From NCBI RefSeq assembly GCF_002087085.1, contig NZ_MWQY01000026.1, positions 1 to 52,157 on the forward strand: 52,157 bases of DNA. Reading direction: 5' to 3'. The DNA is from Marispirochaeta aestuarii (lineage in GTDB: Bacteria; Spirochaetota; Spirochaetia; JC444; Marispirochaetaceae). A model generated the notes under the pieces. The model did no database searches. It was not told where the DNA came from and was given only the letters and a program-made list of their open reading frames with translations. Numbering within the stretch: the first letter of the stretch is position 1; every line of letters starts with the position of its first letter. Made by a program: the position numbers and the translations under genes. This document shows positions 23,229 to 40,409 of the stretch, piece by piece.

Positions 23229-23273
23229 TCAGGTTGAAAGTTGTGTGTCGGATTTCACACCCCTTTCAGGAGC

Positions 23274-26200
23274 ATGATCGTGAGGTCCAGAGCCCTTGTT
23301 TCTCTATGTTCAGTTCTCGTTTTCTCCCTGTTTTTCAGCTTCTCACCCTTGAGGGCTGTTCCCATACCGGAGCATTTCCGCTTCGACTCCTTTACAACGG
23401 AGGACGGCCTCGCTAATTCTTCGGTATCCAGGATCATTCAGGACCGGGATGGAATAATCTGGATAGCCACCCAGGCGGGACTGAACAAGTTTGACGGATA
23501 TACCTTTACCCATTACGAACATGACCCTTTCAATGAGAACTCCCTTTCCCATAACCTGGTGCAGACCATGTATCTCGACGGCGACGGCAGCTTATGGGTG
23601 GGAACCTACGGCGGTCTGAACCATTTCGATCCAGTCAGCGACACCTTTACGCGCTATATCAACGTGCCAGGGGATGACACCTCCCTGAGCAATAACATTG
23701 TTACCGCTGTATCCCGCGACACCAGGGGGACGCTCTGGGTCGGAACCCTTGGTGGGCTCAACCGCTTCAATGAAGAGGCTGAACTCTTTATCAGGTATCT
23801 GCCGGGTCAGGACCGGGAGAAATCCCTGGCGAACGGGGTGGTCCGGGATTTTATGCTGGACCTCGAGGGCAATTTATGGATAGGAACGAACGGCGGGTTA
23901 TGCCTCTACAGCTACGATTCAGATGACTTTACCGTGTATCGCCACGACCCGGATAATCCGGATTCTCTGCCCTCTCCCTATGTAATGACGATGATTCAGA
24001 ATCCTGAAGATCCGGAACGCTTCTGGGTTGGGACCTGGGGGGGCGGGGTTTCGGAGTTTCACATACCTTCAGGTTCGGTACGGGACTTTGATCTTCCAAA
24101 GAAGGAGGTCTACCGGATTCTCTACGATTCCAGGGGAAGACTCTGGATCGGTACCTGGGGCGGCGGCCTGATTGTGCTGAATCCCCGGAACGAAAACCTG
24201 GTTCATGTGACGGCCTCGAGTCAGAAGAGCAGTCACGGCCTTCTACACAATGTAGTCTACTCCCTTATGGAGGACTCTTCCGGAATGATCTGGATCGGGA
24301 CCAATGGAGGGGGAATCAATACCTATGAGGACTGGAAGAACCAGTATGCTTCCATAATCCCTGATGCTGAATCTCCTTCGTCTCTGGCACCGGGCAAAGT
24401 GGAGGCTCTTCTCCAGGATCCGGACGGAACCCTCTGGAGCGGCATCTACTCCGGCGGCCTTAACCGAAGGTACCCGGAAAGCGGAAAGATCCGGCGCTAT
24501 ACACACGATCCTGAAGACCCTTTCAGCTTGAGCAATGACATTGTAAACGCCCTGCTGAGGGATTCCCGGGGAACCCTCTGGGTAGGAACCAACGAGGGAC
24601 TGAACATATACATTCCCGAAGATGATAATTTCAAACGGGTCCTGGCCGACGGCACCGCTTTGACACCTCCGGAGGATACGATCTTCGAACTCTACGAAGA
24701 CAGCAGCGGGGGTATCTGGCTCGGTACGAATATTGCGGGAGCGGTCCGGATGGATCCTGCCAGTGGGCTGTATCGTCACTACACCCATGATCCGGACGAC
24801 CCCGGCAGTCTCAGCGACAATCTGGTACGTACCATTCTCGAAGATCCTGACGGTACCGTATGGATCGGGACGAATAACGGACTTAACCGGCTTGATCCGT
24901 CAGGCGGGCAGTTCAAACGCTATCTGTATAATCCCGATGATCCCGCGGGCCTGAGCAACAGCAATATCCGTGCCCTGGTTCGGGATACCTCGGGAATTCT
25001 CTGGATTGCGACCTCCGGGGGCGGTTTGAACCGCTACCATCCTGAAACTGACAGTTTTTCCTATGTCTCCCGCAGGGACGGGCTCTTAAGCAATCATATT
25101 CTCAATATGGTTGAGGGCCGCCCGGGAGAACTCTGGATGAACACGACCCGCGGCGTTTCGGTATATGATATCAGCTCCGAAAGCTTTAGGACCATCGATG
25201 CATCCACCGGGTTGCTCTCGGACGAGCTTGCCAACGGGCTGCATGTGGGACCCGGCGGAAAAATCTACATAGGCAGCATCAACGGCATTACCAGTATCCA
25301 GGAAACCCCGGATGAATCGGAAATGTTTATTCCTCCCATTTCGCTGGTCCGTTTTGAAGTCCTGGGAGAAGAGCGATCCCTGGAAAACGGTGATGACGGC
25401 GTATTCACCGAATGTACCCTGGAGGCCTCGGACAGCCTTATTTCCTTCCAGTTTTCCGCTCTGGACTACTCGGCCCCTGAGCGGAACCAGTATGCCTACA
25501 AGCTCGAGGGCTTCGACTCCGACTGGATCCGGGCAGGCTCCCGTAACTACGTATCCTATACAAATCTGGATCCGGGCCGCTATACCCTGCGCGTTATCGG
25601 AGCGGGGAGCAGGGGTAACTGGAACCATCAGGGGATTTCGATCCCCTTGAGGGTCCTGCCTCCCTGGTATCTGAGTGTCTGGGCAAAGATGCTCTATGCT
25701 TTGACCTTTCTGCTCTTAGTCCTTTCTCTGCTGCATTTCAACCAGATCAAACAGAGAAAGGCGGAGGAACGTTACCTGGAACAGGCGCGGCTGAACCGCG
25801 AACTGGATCGCAAGGTCAGGGAGAGGACCGCAGAGATCGAAAGGGCGAAGCAGGTCGCAGAGGAAGCCACCCGGGCCAAGAGTCTATTTCTGGCGAATAT
25901 GAGCCATGAGATCCGGACCCCCCTGAACGGAATTTTCGGGATGCTCTCTCTTCTCTCGAGAACGAAGCTGAATTCGGACCAGCAGGAGTACCTGGAAAAC
26001 TCCAAAAGCGCGGTGGGGAACCTCAATTCCCTGATCAACGATCTTCTCGATATCGAAAGAATTGAATCGGGAAAGATCCGCATCGAAAACGCCCCGTTCT
26101 CCGTCGCCCAGGCTGCCGAATATGTCAGGACCCTTTTTGAACAGGGTGCTGCAGAAAAAGGGATCGATCTGACACTGAAGCTTGATCTTCCCTCGGATCT

Positions 26201-27008
26201 GGACGTTGTTATGGGAGACCGGAACAGATTTATCCAGATTGTCAGCAACCTGGTGGGAAACGCCGTCAAATATACGGAGCAGGGGTCCATCCTCTTCGTT
26301 GTGGCCACAGAAAAGAAAAACGATCAGGAAATCCGCTGCGAAGTTACAGTGCAGGATACGGGTATCGGTATGCCCGATGACCAGCTCCATCGAATTTTTG
26401 ACAGCTTTTCCCAGCTGGATATGGGCTATGGCAAGGCTTCCAAGGGAGCCGGACTGGGGCTGGCAATTGTGAAGCAACTGGCGGAAGCCATGGGGGGGAC
26501 TGTGTCTGTGAGCAGTCAGCTGGGGAGAGGATCGACCTTCCTGGCAACCCTCCTGTTCTCGCCGGCTCCCGAGGGATCCGGGTATCAGGAGGAAAAACCG
26601 GATCAGGGAGAACAGTTTTCGCTGGCCAAGGATGGACAACTGCGTGTACTTGTCTGCGAAGACGAGGCCATTAACCGTATCTATATCAGCAAGTTCCTTC
26701 AGTCCAAAGGCTATGAGGTCGATCTGGCGACCAACGGGAATGAGGCCCTGGACCGGGCCCGGGAAGGGGCCTACTCCCTTATTCTGATGGATATCGGCAT
26801 GCCCGGCATCAACGGACTGGAGGCCGCAGGTCAGCTGCGGGCCCTTGGAATGAACACCCCCATTCTCGCCCTGACAGCCCATACCTTTTCCGAGGATATC
26901 CAGCGCTGCCTGGAGGCCGGTATGAACGATTTTGTGGCCAAACCGATAAACGAACAGACCCTGCTCAGCAAAATCAGGACGTGGATAAAAAATCCGGTGC
27001 AGACCTGA
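23274..27008 (+). CDS. Hybrid histidine kinase with beta-propeller sensor (HTCS-like, no DNA-binding output)
   Basis: About 1244 residues. A signal-type helix (ALVSLCSVLVFSLFFSF) precedes a periplasmic sensor of roughly 14 Reg_prop repeats (motif SLWVGTYGGLNHFDP and variants) making two beta-propellers, from about 35 to 640. A Y_Y_Y domain (about 719-789, with YAYKLEGFDSDW), a TM helix near 801-822 and a short coiled coil follow. The kinase core has phospho-acceptor His near 878 (NMSHEIRTPLNG) and a HATPase with VQDTGIGMP and GAGLGLAI. A C-terminal receiver carries the phospho-Asp near 1173 (ILMDIGMPG). Bacteroides relatives sense glycans and end in an AraC domain; this one lacks it and must signal to a separate protein. 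AGGAG lies 1 base from the ATG but 7 from a GTG at 23280, which could be the true start. Confidence 0.9.
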   Translation: MIVRSRALVSLCSVLVFSLFFSFSPLRAVPIPEHFRFDSFTTEDGLANSSVSRIIQDRDGIIWIATQAGLNKFDGYTFTHYEHDPFNENSLSHNLVQTMYLDGDGSLWVGTYGGLNHFDPVSDTFTRYINVPGDDTSLSNNIVTAVSRDTRGTLWVGTLGGLNRFNEEAELFIRYLPGQDREKSLANGVVRDFMLDLEGNLWIGTNGGLCLYSYDSDDFTVYRHDPDNPDSLPSPYVMTMIQNPEDPERFWVGTWGGGVSEFHIPSGSVRDFDLPKKEVYRILYDSRGRLWIGTWGGGLIVLNPRNENLVHVTASSQKSSHGLLHNVVYSLMEDSSGMIWIGTNGGGINTYEDWKNQYASIIPDAESPSSLAPGKVEALLQDPDGTLWSGIYSGGLNRRYPESGKIRRYTHDPEDPFSLSNDIVNALLRDSRGTLWVGTNEGLNIYIPEDDNFKRVLADGTALTPPEDTIFELYEDSSGGIWLGTNIAGAVRMDPASGLYRHYTHDPDDPGSLSDNLVRTILEDPDGTVWIGTNNGLNRLDPSGGQFKRYLYNPDDPAGLSNSNIRALVRDTSGILWIATSGGGLNRYHPETDSFSYVSRRDGLLSNHILNMVEGRPGELWMNTTRGVSVYDISSESFRTIDASTGLLSDELANGLHVGPGGKIYIGSINGITSIQETPDESEMFIPPISLVRFEVLGEERSLENGDDGVFTECTLEASDSLISFQFSALDYSAPERNQYAYKLEGFDSDWIRAGSRNYVSYTNLDPGRYTLRVIGAGSRGNWNHQGISIPLRVLPPWYLSVWAKMLYALTFLLLVLSLLHFNQIKQRKAEERYLEQARLNRELDRKVRERTAEIERAKQVAEEATRAKSLFLANMSHEIRTPLNGIFGMLSLLSRTKLNSDQQEYLENSKSAVGNLNSLINDLLDIERIESGKIRIENAPFSVAQAAEYVRTLFEQGAAEKGIDLTLKLDLPSDLDVVMGDRNRFIQIVSNLVGNAVKYTEQGSILFVVATEKKNDQEIRCEVTVQDTGIGMPDDQLHRIFDSFSQLDMGYGKASKGAGLGLAIVKQLAEAMGGTVSVSSQLGRGSTFLATLLFSPAPEGSGYQEEKPDQGEQFSLAKDGQLRVLVCEDEAINRIYISKFLQSKGYEVDLATNGNEALDRAREGAYSLILMDIGMPGINGLEAAGQLRALGMNTPILALTAHTFSEDIQRCLEAGMNDFVAKPINEQTLLSKIRTWIKNPVQT

Positions 27009-27069
27009 GTTCCGTTCATCTACGAATACCCCCGTTCAGCTCCCCATACAGCGATTCACACGGTTTTTC

Positions 27070-27097
27070 TTGAACCTCCCTTGTCTCCTGCGATACT
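27070..27097 (+). promoter_or_regulatory. Possible promoter of TRAP module A
   Basis: TTGAAC (27070-27075), a 16-base spacer and GATACT (27092-27097), 28 bases before the dctP start. Both boxes are imperfect. The rest of the 116-base gap shows nothing clear. Confidence 0.3.
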
Positions 27098-27124
27098 GGA
27101 GGTAAATCAACAAGGAGGATTGTT

Positions 27125-28123
27125 ATGAGAAAAACAATCGTTGCTGTTCTGTGTGTCCTGTTACTGACTGCCGGGCTATTCGCCGAAGGCAGGCAGGAGG
27201 GGGCAGCGGAAACCTACAAAATTACCGCTGGTCTTGGTTTGAATGACAAGTCGGCAGCCTATGAAGCCATGGTGTATTTTAAAGAACTTGTGGAAGAAGG
27301 CAGCGACGGACGTATCGTAATGGAAATTTACCATTCAAGTCAGCTTGGAGACGACCGGGAGATGATGGAAGCCCTGCAGCGGGGAGAACAGGAGATGACT
27401 GTCCCTTCAACCGCTCCGATTGTCCCCTTTGTTCCGGAGTTCGGTGTCTTTGATCTCCCCTTTTTGTTTCCTAAACACGAAGATGCAGACCGGGTTCTAG
27501 ATGGCGAAATTGGACAGAGGATTCTGGACAAACTATCTGATGTCGGACTTAAAGGACTGGTTTATTGGGAGAATGGGTACCGAAATCTCACTAATAGTGT
27601 ACGTGAGGTGAGAACTCCCGCAGATGTTAAGGGTATGAAAGTCCGTACAATGGAAAACCCAATGCACCTGGATGCCTGGAGAACCATGGGGGCTAATCCT
27701 ACGCCCATGGCTTTCGGCGAGCTTTTCTCCGCCATGCAGCAGGGGGTTGTGGACGGCCAGGAAAATCCCTGGGGTACCATTTATCTTCAGAACTTTCATG
27801 AAGTCCAGACATTTGCGTCCGATACAGGTCATGTTTATTCACCCTTCGTTTTGATGATCAGCCAGAAGTACTGGGACAATCTTCCTGCCGATCTGCAGAA
27901 GGTTGTTATGGATGCAGCTGTTAAATCCCGGGATAAGAACCGTGAGCTTAATCGTAAATATAACAAAGAATATATGTCAAAACTAAAGGAAGTTATGACT
28001 GTTTCAGAACTGACTTTAGAAGAAAAAGCTCAGTTTCAAACTGCTGTTCAATCTGTTTATGACCAATATGCTGATGCAATCGGAAGGGGTTTGATCAACG
28101 AAGTGATGGAAGAACTTAAGTAA
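27125..28123 (+). CDS. dctP: TRAP transporter substrate-binding protein, module A
   Basis: 332 residues, periplasmic DctP family. The signal peptide (IVAVLCVLLLTAGLFAEG) has no lipobox Cys. The family core is clear: a YHSSQLGDDREMMEALQRGE segment near 60-80, GLKGLVYWENGYRNLTNS near 140, and the carboxylate-binding region KGMKVRTMENPMHLDAW followed by TPMAFGELFSAMQQGVVDGQ near 170-215. Family ligands are usually organic acids bound through the conserved Arg (in KVR), but sugars, ectoine and other compounds occur, so the substrate is open. Base composition is mixed: the first 650 bases are near the genome norm and the last 340 become AT-rich. AAGGAGG lies before the ATG. A hairpin separates it from dctQ. 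Confidence 0.93.
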   Translation: MRKTIVAVLCVLLLTAGLFAEGRQEGAAETYKITAGLGLNDKSAAYEAMVYFKELVEEGSDGRIVMEIYHSSQLGDDREMMEALQRGEQEMTVPSTAPIVPFVPEFGVFDLPFLFPKHEDADRVLDGEIGQRILDKLSDVGLKGLVYWENGYRNLTNSVREVRTPADVKGMKVRTMENPMHLDAWRTMGANPTPMAFGELFSAMQQGVVDGQENPWGTIYLQNFHEVQTFASDTGHVYSPFVLMISQKYWDNLPADLQKVVMDAAVKSRDKNRELNRKYNKEYMSKLKEVMTVSELTLEEKAQFQTAVQSVYDQYADAIGRGLINEVMEELK

Positions 28124-28151
28124 GGGGCATTCTTAAAATAATGTAATTGGT

Positions 28152-28194
28152 CACCGGATCAAGGGCACATAATGTCAAGATCCGGTGGTTTTAA
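28152..28194 (+). terminator. Intercistronic hairpin between dctP and dctQ, module A
   Basis: A 9-bp perfect stem CACCGGATC/GATCCGGTG with an 18-base loop, followed by GTTTTAAT. It probably acts as a partial terminator or as a 3' barrier that raises dctP mRNA levels over dctQM. TRAP module B has a hairpin in the same position. Confidence 0.5.
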
Positions 28195-28214
28195 TCTATC
28201 AGAGGAGACATAAG

Positions 28215-28718
28215 ATGTTTTTCGGACGTTTCCAGGCAGCCCTTGAAAAGGCATATTCCATGTTTCTCATACTGTTAACATTAACAATGTTTATAATTGT
28301 TGCATTCAATGTTTTCATGCGCTTTGTGATGAATCAGTCCCTAGGCTGGGCGGATGAACTGGCGCGTTTCATTTTCATCTGGATAGGTTTTCTTGGGGCT
28401 GTACTAGCATATAAAAACGATGAACATGTTGGGCTTAGTTTTTTGATTGATGCCATACAGTCCTCCAGGGGGAAGCGCATCATTAGCGTTATACAGCAGA
28501 TCCTTAGCCTCGTAGTGCTGTTGTTTATTACCTATTTCGGGTACCAGGCTTCAACCACTGTCATGAATGTATCTCCAGCATTATCCATCCCCATGTCCTT
28601 AATGTATCTCATTGTACCTTTTTGTGGAGGTATGATGTGTTTGCTTGGAATTGGAAAGCTCATCGCGATTTTCCGGGGGGCGGAAATACAGACTAATATC
28701 AGGAATTCGGTGGAGTAA
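28215..28718 (+). CDS. dctQ: TRAP transporter small membrane subunit, module A
   Basis: 167 residues with four TM helices (residues about 15-38, 50-70, 88-110, 128-150). The DctQ signature is RFVMNQSLGWADELARFIF followed by WIGFLGAVLAYKNDEHVGL near residues 35-75. The start at 28215 is fixed by AGAGGAG 8-14 bases upstream. The gene is clearly AT-rich compared with most of the window. DctM starts 3 bases after its stop. Confidence 0.92.
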   Translation: MFFGRFQAALEKAYSMFLILLTLTMFIIVAFNVFMRFVMNQSLGWADELARFIFIWIGFLGAVLAYKNDEHVGLSFLIDAIQSSRGKRIISVIQQILSLVVLLFITYFGYQASTTVMNVSPALSIPMSLMYLIVPFCGGMMCLLGIGKLIAIFRGAEIQTNIRNSVE

Positions 28719-28721
28719 TGT

Positions 28722-30002
28722 ATGTTGTGGATTTTCCTCTTTTTTCTATTTTCCTCAGTTATTCTTGGACTTCCTATTGTTTTTGCACTCGGTATAGCCA
28801 ACATAGTCATGTTGCAATTGTTAGATCTTCCATTCACTATTATTGCAAGTAAGATGATATCGGGAATGAACAGTTTTCCACTCCTCGCGATCCCATTTTT
28901 TATGTTCGTTGGGGAGGTAATGAGTCGTGGTGGTATAGCTCGCAGACTTGTCAAACTGGCAGATGCTTTTGTTGGACACATTACAGGGGGGCTTGGTCAT
29001 GTAAATATTCTTGCCAGCATGTTCTTTGGCGGTATAAGTGGATCAGCAATTGCTGATACGGCTGCTATTGGAGGCTTGATGGTTCCGCCTATGGTACAAC
29101 AGAAATACACACCATCATATTCCGCTGCAGTTACCGCAAGTTCTGCGGTAATTGGCATAATAATTCCCCCCAGTATTCCTTTTATTTTATACGGAATAGT
29201 AACAAGTACATCAATAGCAAGGCTTTTTCTGGGTGGTATAGTTCCAGGTCTTATCGTCGGTTTTGCTCTGATGGTAACTACCTATATTACAAGCAGTCGT
29301 TATGGTTATGGGAAAAGAGAGAAAGGCAAGTCTTTTTCCCTAAAGGAGGTCTGGTCTGCATTTCAGGCAGTTTGGCCGGCTCTGACTCTACCGGTGATCA
29401 TTGTAGGCGGTATTCTCGGTGGAATATTTACTGCAACCGAAGCTGGGGCAGTAGCAGCTTTTGTTGCACTTCTTCTTAGTCTCTTCTATTACCGTGAAAT
29501 TCAGATTAAAGATCTTCCCGGAATATTTCTATCTACTGCCAAGACAACTGCAATTGTTCTGTTTCTCAGTGCAATGGCCATGGTTTCTGCCTGGCTGTTG
29601 ACAAGGGCAAGAGTCCCGGTTGCTTTATCAAATCTTCTGACAGCTATTACAGAATCTAAACTGCTTATTCTTCTATTTTGTAACATGCTTTTATTCCTTG
29701 TTGGCTTTGTCATGGATTTGACACCTGCAATTCTTATCCTTGCACCCATACTCACACCTTTAATGATGAATATCGGAATCGATCCGGTTTACTTTGGGGT
29801 AATAATGTGTATTAACCTTGGGATTGGGTTAGTTACACCACCAGTGGGAACTGTTTTGTATGTGGCATGCGGTGTTGCAGATGTGAGAATGGAGGGTTTG
29901 GTAAAGTCTCTTCTTCCGTTTTTGTTTACTCTGCTTGTAGTTCTGTTATTACTTATTCTTTTTCCAGAATTGGTCATGTTCATTCCCAACTATTTCAGCT
30001 AA
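28722..30002 (+). CDS. dctM: TRAP transporter large membrane subunit, module A
   Basis: 426 residues with about twelve TM helices, DctM/SiaM type, an elevator-type Na+-coupled permease. Conserved segments are FPLLAIPFFMFVGEVMSRGG near 48-67, the GGISGSAIADTAAIGGLMVPPM loop region near 103-125, IIIPPSIPFILYG near 148-160 and LGIGLVTPPVGTVLY near 366-380. Gene composition is about 32-35% G+C in sampled 60-base lines, against about 58% in the module B homologue, so recent acquisition is likely. It overlaps nothing; the URO-D-like gene follows after 52 bases. Confidence 0.95.
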   Translation: MLWIFLFFLFSSVILGLPIVFALGIANIVMLQLLDLPFTIIASKMISGMNSFPLLAIPFFMFVGEVMSRGGIARRLVKLADAFVGHITGGLGHVNILASMFFGGISGSAIADTAAIGGLMVPPMVQQKYTPSYSAAVTASSAVIGIIIPPSIPFILYGIVTSTSIARLFLGGIVPGLIVGFALMVTTYITSSRYGYGKREKGKSFSLKEVWSAFQAVWPALTLPVIIVGGILGGIFTATEAGAVAAFVALLLSLFYYREIQIKDLPGIFLSTAKTTAIVLFLSAMAMVSAWLLTRARVPVALSNLLTAITESKLLILLFCNMLLFLVGFVMDLTPAILILAPILTPLMMNIGIDPVYFGVIMCINLGIGLVTPPVGTVLYVACGVADVRMEGLVKSLLPFLFTLLVVLLLLILFPELVMFIPNYFS

Positions 30003-30054: not shown

Positions 30055-31122
30055 ATGACATCTCGTGAACGATTTCTTGCTGCAGCCCGGGGACTGTATA
30101 CTGATTGCATTCCGGCAGCACCATATAATGGTAATTTTGGAGCGGCTCTGGCCGGTATACCGATATCAGTTTATAACACTGATGGAAAACAGATGGCAGA
30201 TGCCCAGACTCTTGCTTGGGAAAAGATTGGGCAGGATGTAATCGTTGCGCAGTCTGATAATTACTATATTGCTGAAGGATTCGGATGTGTAATTGAACAG
30301 CCGTACGATACAACCCCAAATTTGGTTAAACCAGCCGTTGCGACACTTGATGAAGTTGAAAAACTCAAGGTGCCGGATCCGTACAGAGACGGACGGATGC
30401 CTGTATATCTCGAAGCAATTTCTTTGTTGCGCGAAAGGTTTGGTAATGAAGTTGCAATACGTGGTCCGGGAACAGGACCATTTTCACTAGCCAGCTATTT
30501 GATGGGTGGGACTACCGAGTTCCTGATGCAGATTGCATATTGTGAAGCCGACAATGATTCTGTAAAAGAGTCACAATTATTCGAATTGATGGATGTTTCT
30601 TCGGATGCTCTTATAGTCTTTTTAAAAGCTCAGCTATCTGCAGGTTCTGATACTGCAATGGTTGGAGATTCTCTTGCTTCATTGAGTATGATCTCACCAA
30701 AGATTTATGAGAAATATGTCTTCCCTTACGAATGCAAGGTTTTCCAGAGCATCAGGGCGGATGTAAAAAAGCGTGATGCAGTAACTATTTTACATATTTG
30801 CGGCGATACCCGGGATATTCTTCCCAACATGGCCCAAACAGGTGCTGATATTCTTGAAATTGACGCAAAGGTTACTCTTGCTGATGCTCGGATTCTTGTT
30901 GGGGATAAAATTGCACTTATGGGAAATCTTGAACCCACAACAGTTTTGTTTGCTGGGACACCAGAACATGTGCAAAATGAATCTTTGAAATGCATTCGGG
31001 CAATGGAAGGCTCTCAAGGTGGGTTCATCCTTGGGTCAGGTTGTGAGGTGGTGCCAAAGAGTCCTGAGGTAAACTTGAAAATGATGGTAGAAACTGCTCA
31101 TAATGCATCAGGGAATATGTAA
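30055..31122 (+). CDS. URO-D-superfamily protein, MtaA/CmuA-like methyltransferase candidate, module A
   Basis: 355 residues of the uroporphyrinogen decarboxylase superfamily. The zinc-binding pattern of the methyltransferase branch (MtaA, MtbA, CmuA) is present: H-x-C in LHICGDTRDIL near residue 246 and a C-terminal Cys in ILGSGCEVVPKSPE near 330. The Arg and Asp positions typical of HemE are not evident, so haem synthesis is unlikely. By family knowledge it could move a methyl group between a corrinoid protein and an acceptor thiol, but no corrinoid protein or substrate methyltransferase is encoded nearby. Placement after dctPQM suggests it acts on the imported compound or its product. AAGGAAAGG precedes the ATG. 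The gene is AT-rich like dctQM. Confidence 0.82.
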   Translation: MTSRERFLAAARGLYTDCIPAAPYNGNFGAALAGIPISVYNTDGKQMADAQTLAWEKIGQDVIVAQSDNYYIAEGFGCVIEQPYDTTPNLVKPAVATLDEVEKLKVPDPYRDGRMPVYLEAISLLRERFGNEVAIRGPGTGPFSLASYLMGGTTEFLMQIAYCEADNDSVKESQLFELMDVSSDALIVFLKAQLSAGSDTAMVGDSLASLSMISPKIYEKYVFPYECKVFQSIRADVKKRDAVTILHICGDTRDILPNMAQTGADILEIDAKVTLADARILVGDKIALMGNLEPTTVLFAGTPEHVQNESLKCIRAMEGSQGGFILGSGCEVVPKSPEVNLKMMVETAHNASGNM

Positions 31123-31181
31123 AAGTATATTTATTCGACAGTGAGTTTGCGTTACTTTATCCAGGGGGATCAGGGTTCTTG

Positions 31182-33227
31182 ATGAGCATCCGAGTTCGTA
31201 TTTTTCGTTCTTATATGATATTGATTCTCCTGGTTCTTCTGTACTTATGCTGTTCATTCCTTTTAGGTTCTTTTCGTTTGCAGCTTGAAAAGGATAAAAT
31301 TTCTATTCTTGAAGTAAAAACAACTTGGGAAGAGTTGCGTGTCCTGGTGAATGAGACAACAGCCGATTGGAACGACGGTAAAACATATGAAGAGTTTATA
31401 AAGAAGAGTATACAGTTTGAGGCAAGAATAAACAAACTGGTAGAATCAGATAACCGCAATGTATGGTATTGGCGACAGGTCAATCGGTACATCGATAACT
31501 TATACTCTGTGTGGCTGATGGCGCGGGTAAATGTTGACAGCCTGATAGAGACACGAGAAAGTCTTGAATTCCATAAGATGGAGAAGTCGCTTGTTCAAAT
31601 CCCCGGTCCTCAAAGGCTTTATCATTTTTTTATTAGGCTTATGGAAAATGCCGATAATGAGAACGATCCACATATAATTATTCTAAAGAAATATACTGAT
31701 GCAGTTGAGTTTTTTCCTATCTACAGTAATGCTGTCGACTATGGATTTTCAATTGCACTGCAAAAAATGGGGATTCAATATAATCATATAATAGTCATTC
31801 AGAATTATTTGAGTGCTATTTTCTTTATTCTTTTCCTCTTGAGCTTTGTGACAATCTCTCATCATTTTACTAACTCCATTTCTTCACCTATTATGCAAGT
31901 AAGCGATAAATTAAACACCTTTATTGGTAGAAATGTGGAAAGCGAATATAATGGTCAAAATGACGAGGTGGCCATGCTGGAGGCGAGTGTGGATGACCTG
32001 ATCGAGCATTATACTCACCTGGCAAGACTGGCCGGCCGGCTCTCCCGGGGTCATATAGAGACTTCCCTCCTTTCGCTCCCCCGGCAGGGAGTGGTCGGAA
32101 AGGCCCTCAAGGAGGTCGCCTCCTATCTTAAAGGGCTGGCAAAGACCGCAGACTGGATCCGGGACGGAAAATACGGCGCCCAGGTCAAGGAGAAGTCGGA
32201 ACAGGATGTACTTGCCCGGAGTTTCAATATTATGTCCAGGGAGATTGCCGAGAAGATCAGCACCCTGCGGAGCATGTTTGAGGCTATAGATGAGGGGATT
32301 ATTCTGGCCGACTGCGAGGGCCGGATCCTGGAGGCAAACCAGAAGTTCCTCTCCCTCATGGAGGTGGGAGATCCGGGAGAACTCGATTCTATCGACATCT
32401 TTACTCTGATTATTCCCGAGGAGGAAATCCAGGGGCAGATCAGAAAGGGACTGCCCGTGTATGATTTGTATTGCACCATCTTCAATCGTAAGAATGAGCG
32501 GATTCCCGTCAAAGTGAACGTGCGTCCCCTGAATACGGCTTCCGACGGGGGTAATAGCGTAATGATGCTGATTTCAAATGAATCCCTGCGGGTACGAATG
32601 AAGCGCGAACAGGAAACCCTGGCAGCCCAGGCCCTGGAGGCTGAATTAAGGGCTTTGCGGGCCCAGATCAATCCCCATTTTTTCTTCAATACCCTGAACA
32701 CCATAGCCCATCTTATCGAAACGGATTCCCCCACAGCGGTGGGGGTTGTGGAAAAACTTGCCGGGATGTTCCGTTACACCCTGCTGTCCACAAAGCATAA
32801 AACTGTACGACTGCACGAAGAGCTCCTGCATGTGCGGGAGTTCCTCGCCATAGAGAAAATCCGCCACGGCTCCCGGTTGGAAGTCGATTTCAGAATTGAG
32901 CGGTCTGTTGAAGAATCCGGTATTCCTCCCATGCTGTTGCAGCCGATTGTGGAAAACAGTATAAAACACGGAGCGGATAAAAACGGAATAATCCGCATCA
33001 TGCTGAAAGCCTGCAGGGAACAGGATGATCTCTGTATAGACATTTCGGACGCCGGCGATTCGGAAGTCGATATTGCAGGTCTGCTGGACAACAGCCGCAC
33101 GGGCCTGCAGAATGTAAACCGGCGTTTGATGACCCTGTACAGAAAGCATCTCGAGTTCATCAGGAGGAATACAGGTGGTCTCATGGTCAGGATCAGGGTT
33201 CCCCTGGACGGGGAGGGAACAGGATGA
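31182..33227 (+). CDS. LytS-type sensor histidine kinase, apparent mosaic gene
   Basis: 681 residues. TM1 is near 12-30, an extracytoplasmic sensor domain covers about 31-205, TM2 lies near 208-228 (YLSAIFFILFLLSFVTI), and a HAMP region is near 230-280. A PAS domain spans about 365-470 (FEAIDEGIILADCEGRI), and the His_kinase family core LRAQINPHFFFNTLNTI has its phospho-acceptor His near 499. The HATPase includes PPMLLQPIVENSIKHG. Residues 1-261 are encoded by AT-rich DNA like the TRAP genes upstream; from about base 31,965 the composition jumps to about 60% G+C. The break falls within HAMP, a natural module border. The response regulator overlaps by 4 bases. Likely job: sensing the TRAP substrate or its bound form. 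Confidence 0.9.
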   Translation: MSIRVRIFRSYMILILLVLLYLCCSFLLGSFRLQLEKDKISILEVKTTWEELRVLVNETTADWNDGKTYEEFIKKSIQFEARINKLVESDNRNVWYWRQVNRYIDNLYSVWLMARVNVDSLIETRESLEFHKMEKSLVQIPGPQRLYHFFIRLMENADNENDPHIIILKKYTDAVEFFPIYSNAVDYGFSIALQKMGIQYNHIIVIQNYLSAIFFILFLLSFVTISHHFTNSISSPIMQVSDKLNTFIGRNVESEYNGQNDEVAMLEASVDDLIEHYTHLARLAGRLSRGHIETSLLSLPRQGVVGKALKEVASYLKGLAKTADWIRDGKYGAQVKEKSEQDVLARSFNIMSREIAEKISTLRSMFEAIDEGIILADCEGRILEANQKFLSLMEVGDPGELDSIDIFTLIIPEEEIQGQIRKGLPVYDLYCTIFNRKNERIPVKVNVRPLNTASDGGNSVMMLISNESLRVRMKREQETLAAQALEAELRALRAQINPHFFFNTLNTIAHLIETDSPTAVGVVEKLAGMFRYTLLSTKHKTVRLHEELLHVREFLAIEKIRHGSRLEVDFRIERSVEESGIPPMLLQPIVENSIKHGADKNGIIRIMLKACREQDDLCIDISDAGDSEVDIAGLLDNSRTGLQNVNRRLMTLYRKHLEFIRRNTGGLMVRIRVPLDGEGTG

Positions 33228-33976
33228 TACGTGTACTTATTGCGGATGATGAAAAACCTGCCAGGGGACGTTTAGTCTCTTTTATCTCCGAGTATCCGGA
33301 ATTCCTGATTCTCGGAGAGGCTTCCGACGGACAGGAGACTGTTGCCCAGGTGAACCGGTTTGAGCCTGATGTACTGTTTCTCGATATCCAGATGCCGAAG
33401 AATAACGGATTCGAAGTCCTCCAGCAGCTGACCTGCGACCCTGTAATAATATTCACCACGGCCTATGATGAGTACGCCATTGCGGCTTTCGATGTCCATG
33501 CCCTGGATTATCTTCTCAAGCCCTTCAGCAAGGAGCGGTTCAGCAGTACTGCCGCTCTGATCAGGAAAATTCTGCTGGACCCCATGGACTACAAGGAGCG
33601 GGTACGCAGCGCTGTCGGACAGATCGCTTCAGGGGATGCATATCTTGAACGGGTCACGGTGAAGGACAGACATGTATACTCCATTATCCCTGTGCAGAAT
33701 ATTCAGTGTATAAAAACCGCCGGCGGGCTGGTATATATTCAGACAAAGGAGCGGGAGTTTCAGACGGATACGACCCTGAACCAGTTTGAGCAGCGCCTCG
33801 ATCCTTCCATGTTCATGCGCATACATCGAACGGCGATAGTCAACCTGGAAAGGATCGAGAAGATTCTACCCTGGGGGCAGGGACGTTTTGCCCTTGTGCT
33901 GGAAAATGGGAATTCCCTCCATATCTCCCGGGACCGGCTGCAGGAGTTCAAGTCCCGGGTCGGTCTGAAAGTCTGA
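33224..33976 (+). CDS. LytTR-family response regulator
   Basis: 250 residues. The N-terminal receiver has the acidic pair in IADDEKPARG, phospho-Asp near 54 (LFLDIQMPKNNG) and the conserved Lys in LLKPFSKERF. The C-terminal LytTR DNA-binding domain begins near 145 with VTVKDRHVYSIIPVQNIQCI and holds the typical MRIHRTAIVNLERIEKILPW segment near 203. It forms a canonical LytS/LytTR pair with the kinase through the ATGA overlap. The likely target is the TRAP module A promoter, but no paired LytTR direct repeats were identified with confidence. Confidence 0.94.
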   Translation: MIRVLIADDEKPARGRLVSFISEYPEFLILGEASDGQETVAQVNRFEPDVLFLDIQMPKNNGFEVLQQLTCDPVIIFTTAYDEYAIAAFDVHALDYLLKPFSKERFSSTAALIRKILLDPMDYKERVRSAVGQIASGDAYLERVTVKDRHVYSIIPVQNIQCIKTAGGLVYIQTKEREFQTDTTLNQFEQRLDPSMFMRIHRTAIVNLERIEKILPWGQGRFALVLENGNSLHISRDRLQEFKSRVGLKV

Positions 33977-39377: not shown

Positions 39378-40409
39378 TCAGGGTTCCAGAATAACCTTCA
39401 TGAGTCCGGCTTCCCGATTGTAGAGCCGTGTGAAATAGTCGGCCCCTTCTTCCAGAGGTGCTACCTTGGAAATCAGCGAATCCACATCTACGCGTCCGCT
39501 CTGGATCAGCTGGAGAGACGAGGCAAACTCCCCGGAAGAGGCGTTGGAACCCCTCAGGGTAATCTGGTGGGAGACTATATGCTGCAGGGGCAGCTTGATC
39601 TCAGGCGCCAGGTTTCCGATGGCCGTAACGTTGCCGCCCTTACGGACGCTGTAGAGACAGGCATGCACGGTACTCTCCATACCCACCGCGTCCAGGGCAA
39701 TCTGGGCGCCCAGGCCGCCGGTCAGTTTTTTCATTTCTGCGGGTATGTCGTCTTTTTTTGGATTGAAGGTGCCGGTGGCGCCGAAATCCATGGCCTGCTT
39801 CAGGCGCCCCTCATCCACGTCGGCCACGTATATGCGTCCGCAGCCCGCGGTGCGCAGGACCTGCAGGGTCAGAAGCCCGATAATACCTGCGCCCATCAGA
39901 AGGGCAGTGTCACCGATGGTTATGGGGGTTATGCTGACCCCGTGGACAGCCACCGCCAGGGGTTCGATCATGGCGGCCTGGACGAAACTTACCTCATCGG
40001 GCATTGGATACAGCACGATGGCGGGAACCACCACATATTCGGCAAAGGCTCCATCCCGGTGATACTCGTCGCAGGCGACCCCCAGGACCTGGCGGTTTTC
40101 GCAGAAGTTGAAGTTTCCTTCCCGACAGTAGCGGCACTCTCCGCAGAAGAGGGTGGAGTCAAAGGTCACCCGGTCGCCTTTGGCATACCCTTTTACCCCG
40201 GGGCCGAGCTCTTCGATTACACCTGAGGCCTCGTGCCCCATGATCAGCGGGGGAATCCGCCGTCCGGTGCTGCCGTCAAGGCCGTGGATGTCGCTTCCGC
40301 AAATACCGCAGGCCTTTACCTTTATAAGGACCTCTCCCGCCTTGGGGGAGGGTTTCGGCGCATCGATTATTTCCTGATGATTGTACTCTTTCAATTGCAG
40401 GGCTTTCAT
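39378..40409 (-). CDS. Zinc-dependent alcohol dehydrogenase (MDR; sorbitol/threonine dehydrogenase-like)
   Basis: 343 residues of the medium-chain dehydrogenase family. The catalytic zinc site uses Cys in CGICGSDIHG (near 36-45) and the His-Glu pair in GHEASGVI (near 59). The structural zinc is held by four Cys in CGECRYCREGNFNFC (near 89-103). The nucleotide domain has GAGIIGLLTLQVL near 167. Substrates in this branch are polyols, threonine or sugar acids. AAAAGGAG lies 6-13 bases upstream of the start. A dyad-rich stretch about 70-100 bases upstream is a probable operator for a GntR-type repressor that is not encoded in this window. Confidence 0.92.
   Translation of the reverse strand: MKALQLKEYNHQEIIDAPKPSPKAGEVLIKVKACGICGSDIHGLDGSTGRRIPPLIMGHEASGVIEELGPGVKGYAKGDRVTFDSTLFCGECRYCREGNFNFCENRQVLGVACDEYHRDGAFAEYVVVPAIVLYPMPDEVSFVQAAMIEPLAVAVHGVSITPITIGDTALLMGAGIIGLLTLQVLRTAGCGRIYVADVDEGRLKQAMDFGATGTFNPKKDDIPAEMKKLTGGLGAQIALDAVGMESTVHACLYSVRKGGNVTAIGNLAPEIKLPLQHIVSHQITLRGSNASSGEFASSLQLIQSGRVDVDSLISKVAPLEEGADYFTRLYNREAGLMKVILEP

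Follow-up and report, generated by a model that had tools for sequence, protein, structure and literature searches.

The locus described here raises the question of how one uninterrupted histidine kinase gene comes to have two halves of very different base composition, and whether the halves also differ in ancestry. The gene lies in a stretch of 52,157 nucleotides of Marispirochaeta aestuarii (contig NZ_MWQY01000026.1, positions 1 to 52,157), here called the window. A sequence-only reading of this DNA had proposed that a foreign sensor half, arriving with its TRAP genes, was joined in frame to a resident kinase half. We examine where the composition changes, how far the unusual DNA extends, what related genomes carry in the same place, and what event might have produced the arrangement.

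Composition break within the kinase gene

The kinase open reading frame occupies window positions 31182-33227 on the plus strand when read from an ATG, or begins at 31179 if a TTG is the start, and runs for 681 codons without interruption. The sequence-only reading had pointed to 60-base lines of 30% G+C (at 31861) and 60% G+C (at 31981), to a break near 31,965 at about residue 261, and to an intact frame, and all three are reproduced. A change-point scan over the 681 codons finds third-position G+C rising from 0.36 to 0.65 at codon 260/261, which is window position 31,962, with a 2-unit support interval of 31,953-31,971 and no interruption of the frame across the junction. The log-likelihood gain is 26.9, compared with maxima elsewhere of 10.0 in 2000 permutations, 15.4 in 88 other genes of this genome (at least 400 codons each), and 5.9 in 17 orthologous kinases. 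The sharpest G+C contrast of the entire window, measured between 300 bases on either side, is 0.273 and falls at 31,971; the genome background was taken from fourteen other 20-kb pieces of the same genome, whose top contrasts range from 0.143 to 0.26. The runner-up in the window on the same 300-base measure is 0.233, near 40361, by the 5' end of a minus-strand alcohol dehydrogenase gene.

Downstream of the break, residues 261-681 (31962..33227, +) contain HAMP-like linkers followed by Pfam matches to PAS_8 (8e-8), His_kinase (PF06580, 1.2e-25) and HATPase_c (1.5e-4, which is under the curated cut-off). The adjoining gene (33224..33976, +) encodes a response regulator with Response_reg (1e-20) and LytTR (3e-25) domains, which puts the pair in the class of LytS/His_kinase (PF06580) kinases with LytTR regulators. 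Upstream of the break, residues 1-260 (31182..31961, +) hold TM1, a helical periplasmic sensor, TM2 and a first HAMP-like helix. The model of this half is all helical, with TM1 running into a periplasmic bundle, then TM2, a helix at residues 178-249, a loop at 250-262 and a helix at 263-288, and its confidence is fair for the periplasmic part and low for the HAMP-like part. A fold search with the sensor returned nothing at E = 0.001 or better; the most plausible match is NarQ, itself a sensor built in this helical way (probability 1.00, TM by target 0.65), for which the E of 0.3 is of weak significance. The break had been described as lying between HAMP helices, which agrees with the predicted succession of helix, loop and helix, but confidence is low in just that part and the kinase has no Pfam match to HAMP. 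HAMP-EnvZ structures give weak profile matches (E = 0.1-0.2, residues 230-318), and we refer to the region as a HAMP-like connector.

Extent and gene content of the low-G+C segment

The low-G+C side of the break is not confined to the kinase but extends upstream to about 28 kb. Over 28.2-31.96 kb the G+C is 0.407 against a genome mean of 0.531 in 3.7-kb windows, and only 2-3 of 238 such windows are equally or nearly as low. The genes in it, all on the plus strand, are those for the TRAP small permease DctQ (28185..28718, +; Pfam DctQ 5e-31), the TRAP large permease DctM (28722..30002, +; Pfam DctM 2e-123), a URO-D family, MtaA/CmuA-like protein (30055..31122, +; Pfam URO-D 2e-75), and the first half of the kinase. 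Third-position G+C is 0.34 in DctM, 0.34 in the URO-D gene, 0.36 in the kinase N-half and 0.49 in DctQ, against a genome mean of 0.617. DctM comes nearest to the 2,3-diketo-L-gulonate permease model, with a score below the cut-off, and the genes downstream encode sugar-acid-type dehydrogenases, so that sugar-acid uptake is a reasonable reading of what the operon does.

The right edge is tightly placed, within about 20 bases at 31,953-31,971 (+), in the HAMP-like connector just before a conserved DEVAML helix, and identity to the closest relative, a genome of the same genus denoted G002, climbs from about residue 261, matching this junction. The left edge is less certain. Composition alone would set it further left, at 27,220 (interval 26,987-27,472), inside the gene for the TRAP solute-binding subunit DctP (27125..28123, +; Pfam DctP 6e-97). 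DctP, however, groups with G002 at 95/96, a grouping of the four other lineages without the window is rejected (p = 0.002), its synonymous identity to G002 is above chance, and G002 conserves both its start and the stretch before it. Because DctP keeps these ties to G002, the edge probably lies near the DctP 3' end or ahead of DctQ, approximately at 28000..28184 (+), where synonymous similarity to G002 is kept on the DctP side and lost on the DctQ side. Contrary signs are a DctP third-position G+C of 0.46 and an amino-acid distance to G002 that is not reduced, so that DctP looks resident, or replaced near its 3' end only, and its status is not fully settled. Directly upstream of dctP, at 23241-27008, is a gene for a 1255-aa two-component-type protein, in place in G002 at 72%, in which propeller-like repeats and histidine kinase and receiver motifs can be read by eye.

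Gene order in relatives and a missing binding-protein gene

Full-length orthologues of the kinase, with the same architecture and gene order, are present in G002 and G001, which belong to the same genus as the window's genome, and in G217, G048 and G180, with more distant ones elsewhere in the class. In G002, G001 and G048, the order is DctP-DctQ-DctM-SBP_bac_1-kinase-regulator, and a solute-binding protein (SBP) gene is beside or near the kinase in further orthologous loci too. In the window, the URO-D gene occupies the place held by the SBP_bac_1 gene in these three genomes, a point that the sequence-only reading missed. The window's genome has no SBP orthologue, the best match being 27% over part of the protein, and the gene beside the kinase that marks an SBP-dependent, three-component system is absent from the window. 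The TRAP-kinase-regulator cluster is also found free of an SBP gene in G217 (L151) and G180 (L152), and because these two other lineages lack it as well, the binding protein was probably lost on more than one occasion. In one further genome, the orthologous kinase (G051:C113:13815-15467, L011) has two in-frame TGA codons, with the matched stretch ending at query residue 546; this may be a decaying gene or the result of sequence errors.

The assignment of the URO-D gene to its superfamily by Pfam is clear; against the NCBIfam MtaA/CmuA model it scores 225 bits where the cut-off is 235, which leaves it outside the MtaA/CmuA methyltransferases as that model defines them. A second URO-D/MtaA-like copy is found in the same genome at G000:C2:321761-322807 (L163), 71% identical and with a third-position G+C of 0.71. 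Relatives at 60-71% occur in about 15 class genomes, and in several that were inspected (G002, G102, G066 and G030) they are near a different TRAP set, whose DctM is about 40% identical. In G102, the TRAP and SDR genes flank another open reading frame that looks by eye like a URO-D family member.

To both the left and the right of the low-G+C block, most window genes recur in G002 in an unchanged order, which bears on the possibility that the block is an artifact. If the sample held two related organisms, the assembler might have fused their sequences where these are conserved, and the genome is indeed a draft of 78 contigs with an estimated contamination of 3.4%. This would require two false joins at homologous positions, one of them exactly in frame, while the flanking genes on both sides keep the G002 order, and the assembly holds neither another copy of the sensor half nor the SBP gene. 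We regard an assembly chimera as improbable.

Two ancestries

Downstream of the break, the window is a close sister of G002, in the kinase C-half, the regulator and the flanking genes. Protein identity to G002 is 81% for both the C-half and the regulator, against 55-64% for other close lineages (55-62% for the C-half). In the C-half tree, the window and G002 form a clade at 99/99, and alternatives are rejected at p = 0.001 or less. Expressed relative to other lineages, the window-G002 distance is 0.40 (0.33-0.49) for the C-half and 0.39 for the regulator.

Upstream of the break, in DctQ, DctM and kinase residues 1-260, the window is no nearer to G002 than is usual between separate lineages. 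The relative distances are 0.81 (0.68-0.96) for the N-half, 0.93 for DctQ and 0.97 for DctM, so that the intervals of the two kinase halves do not overlap, and no comparable drop is seen in control pairs. Window-G002 identity is about what G002 has with G001: 55% and 57% for the N-half, 64% and 64% for DctQ, and 84% and 86% for DctM, with DctP at 79.5% and 80%. Synonymous identity to G002 is at chance in DctQ (0.24 versus 0.25) and in the N-half and near chance in DctM (0.30 versus 0.24), and these three have the lowest synonymous similarities to G002 among 28 syntenic segments.

The distance test by itself is silent on which member of the pair changed, and the recombinant could in principle be G002. 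Against this, it is the window's block that departs from its own genome, with third-position G+C of 0.34-0.36 in DctM, the URO-D gene and the N-half where the genome has 0.62; the G002 kinase has no internal break (gain 2.5); and the G002 order, including the SBP gene, is the same as in G001 and G048. That G002 is the altered genome is barely credible.

The trees are less decisive upstream. In the N-half tree, the window plus G002 clade is not recovered and the window joins G217 at 69/85, but the tree is weakly resolved and does not reject the window plus G002 (p = 0.33), and the concatenated upstream genes weakly favor that same pair (75/84) on long branches. Because of these two results, the upstream case draws on distance, synonymous saturation and composition, rather than on a well-supported conflicting branch. 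The same two results speak for vertical descent, with the sensor half diverging fast after loss of the SBP and base composition drifting locally, as does the fact that in every orthologue it is the sensor half that varies more. Yet synonymous identity is no better than chance in DctQ and the N-half and close to it in DctM, and less so in the C-half and its neighbors; selection on protein would not move third positions across four genes and then halt at one codon; and an equal excess distance is found in DctM, which is a conserved permease. We consider vertical descent very improbable. The kinase gene is instead a mosaic of two parts that differ in composition and history, as indicated by the change point, the distances and the trees, the N-half topology being weak. 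The sequence-only reading had named, as evidence against itself, full-length orthologues in close relatives with both halves giving one phylogeny; the orthologues do exist, but composition and distance argue against a shared history of the halves.

Search for a donor

A search of about 400 class genomes, 393 phylum genomes and plasmids turned up no close donor. Searches of the families of G048 and G217, the phylum and a re-centered class draw (mostly the same genomes as the first class search) gave nothing closer than G002, and the donor may be unsampled. The low-G+C lineage G048 was considered and set aside, because DctM and the N-half match it at synonymous sites no better than by chance, and plasmids gave no match. 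A donor by gene conversion within the genome was likewise rejected, the C-half having matches of only 43-54 bases and the N-half no second copy. A paralogue sharing the C-half at the nucleotide level, which the sequence-only reading had suggested looking for, is thus missing from the genome, as is one sharing the N-half, and because of this, the C-half is taken as the resident orthologue.

Proposed event

Very probably, homologous replacement exchanged about 3.9 kb (approximately 28.05-31.96 kb) for DNA from an unsampled low-G+C relative. We infer recombination as the route, and a direction of transfer in which the resident segment would have been swapped for the homologous DNA of a low-G+C spirochaete, with crossover edges near the end of dctP and where the kinase gene encodes the HAMP-like connector. 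The incoming cargo would be dctQ, dctM, the URO-D/MtaA-type gene and codons 1-260 of a gene for a LytS-type sensor kinase. The product would be a mosaic kinase in which a foreign helical periplasmic sensor with its TM helices is fused in frame to the resident HAMP-like, PAS and catalytic half, beside the resident LytTR regulator. The proposed swap of a foreign sensor onto a resident kinase half therefore stands as to the differing histories and the in-frame join, but the partners would not be unrelated kinases: since full-length orthologues are widespread, the sensor half was presumably replaced by its own homologue within a conserved operon. Arrival of the sensor with its TRAP genes fits DctQ and DctM but not DctP, which looks resident.

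The mosaic kinase most likely still controls the sugar-acid-type TRAP operon. The sensor of the relatives probably cooperates with the SBP encoded next to it, and the window's sensor, with the SBP gone, would respond directly or via another binding protein. A tentative and rather doubtful extension is that one event both exchanged the sensor half, with the join at the HAMP connector, and eliminated the SBP partner, turning a three-component system of SBP, kinase and regulator into a direct-sensing two-component system. A comparison of conserved sites between SBP-bearing and SBP-less sensors is suggestive in a few sites only: two window residues, R152 and P143 (at a site that does not vary among 12 SBP-bearing or other sensors), recur in the SBP-less G217, and because of these two, the donor may already have been of an SBP-free type.

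Relation to known systems

Sensor kinases activated by a solute-binding protein include XylFII-LytS, TorT-TorS and LuxP-LuxQ, as reviewed in PMC6321045. Like them, the window's relatives pair an SBP_bac_1 gene with a LytS-type (PF06580) kinase and a response regulator, in an arrangement where gene order suggests that the SBP binds the sensor; unlike the XylFII-LytS type, the window has no SBP gene and its sensor half appears foreign. In Ruminiclostridium cellulolyticum, an SBP gene lies beside a two-component pair controlling sugar uptake, and both the three-component CuaDSR and the two-component CuaSR forms are reported to perceive the signal (PMC10384115). The comparison there is of mutant and recombinant strains, whereas here the SBP was lost in nature, together with a replacement of the sensor. 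By analogy, because CuaSR reportedly perceives its signal without the SBP, a working SBP-free kinase in the window is plausible.

Chimaeric kinases and receptors made by engineering, such as Cph8, NarX-FrzCD, NarX-Tar and Tar-EnvZ, can work (PMC3782828, PMC6321045), and a join in the HAMP-like connector accords with this. Like these, the window's kinase places the sensor half of one protein on the signaling half of another, here joined in a HAMP-like linker, but it is natural, lies between homologous kinases, and is accompanied by the replacement of neighboring genes as part of one segment. Studies of how two-component systems evolve have called domain shuffling rare, looking mostly at the gain and loss of whole domains (PMC4603909, PMC3040137). 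The window resembles such shuffling in that a kinase acquires a different input half, and differs in that the half replaced is a homologous one, one edge being located to about 20 bases. Less usual here are the replacement of half a gene within a family, the tight junction, and a segment that also lacks the partner gene.

One way in which two-component pathways presumably acquire new inputs is by exchanging sensor halves, and the junction in this kinase sits in the type of linker where synthetic biologists splice kinases. The sensor halves of G002 and the window would offer a natural crossover for asking whether a join at the HAMP connector alters the signal perceived or the need for an SBP.
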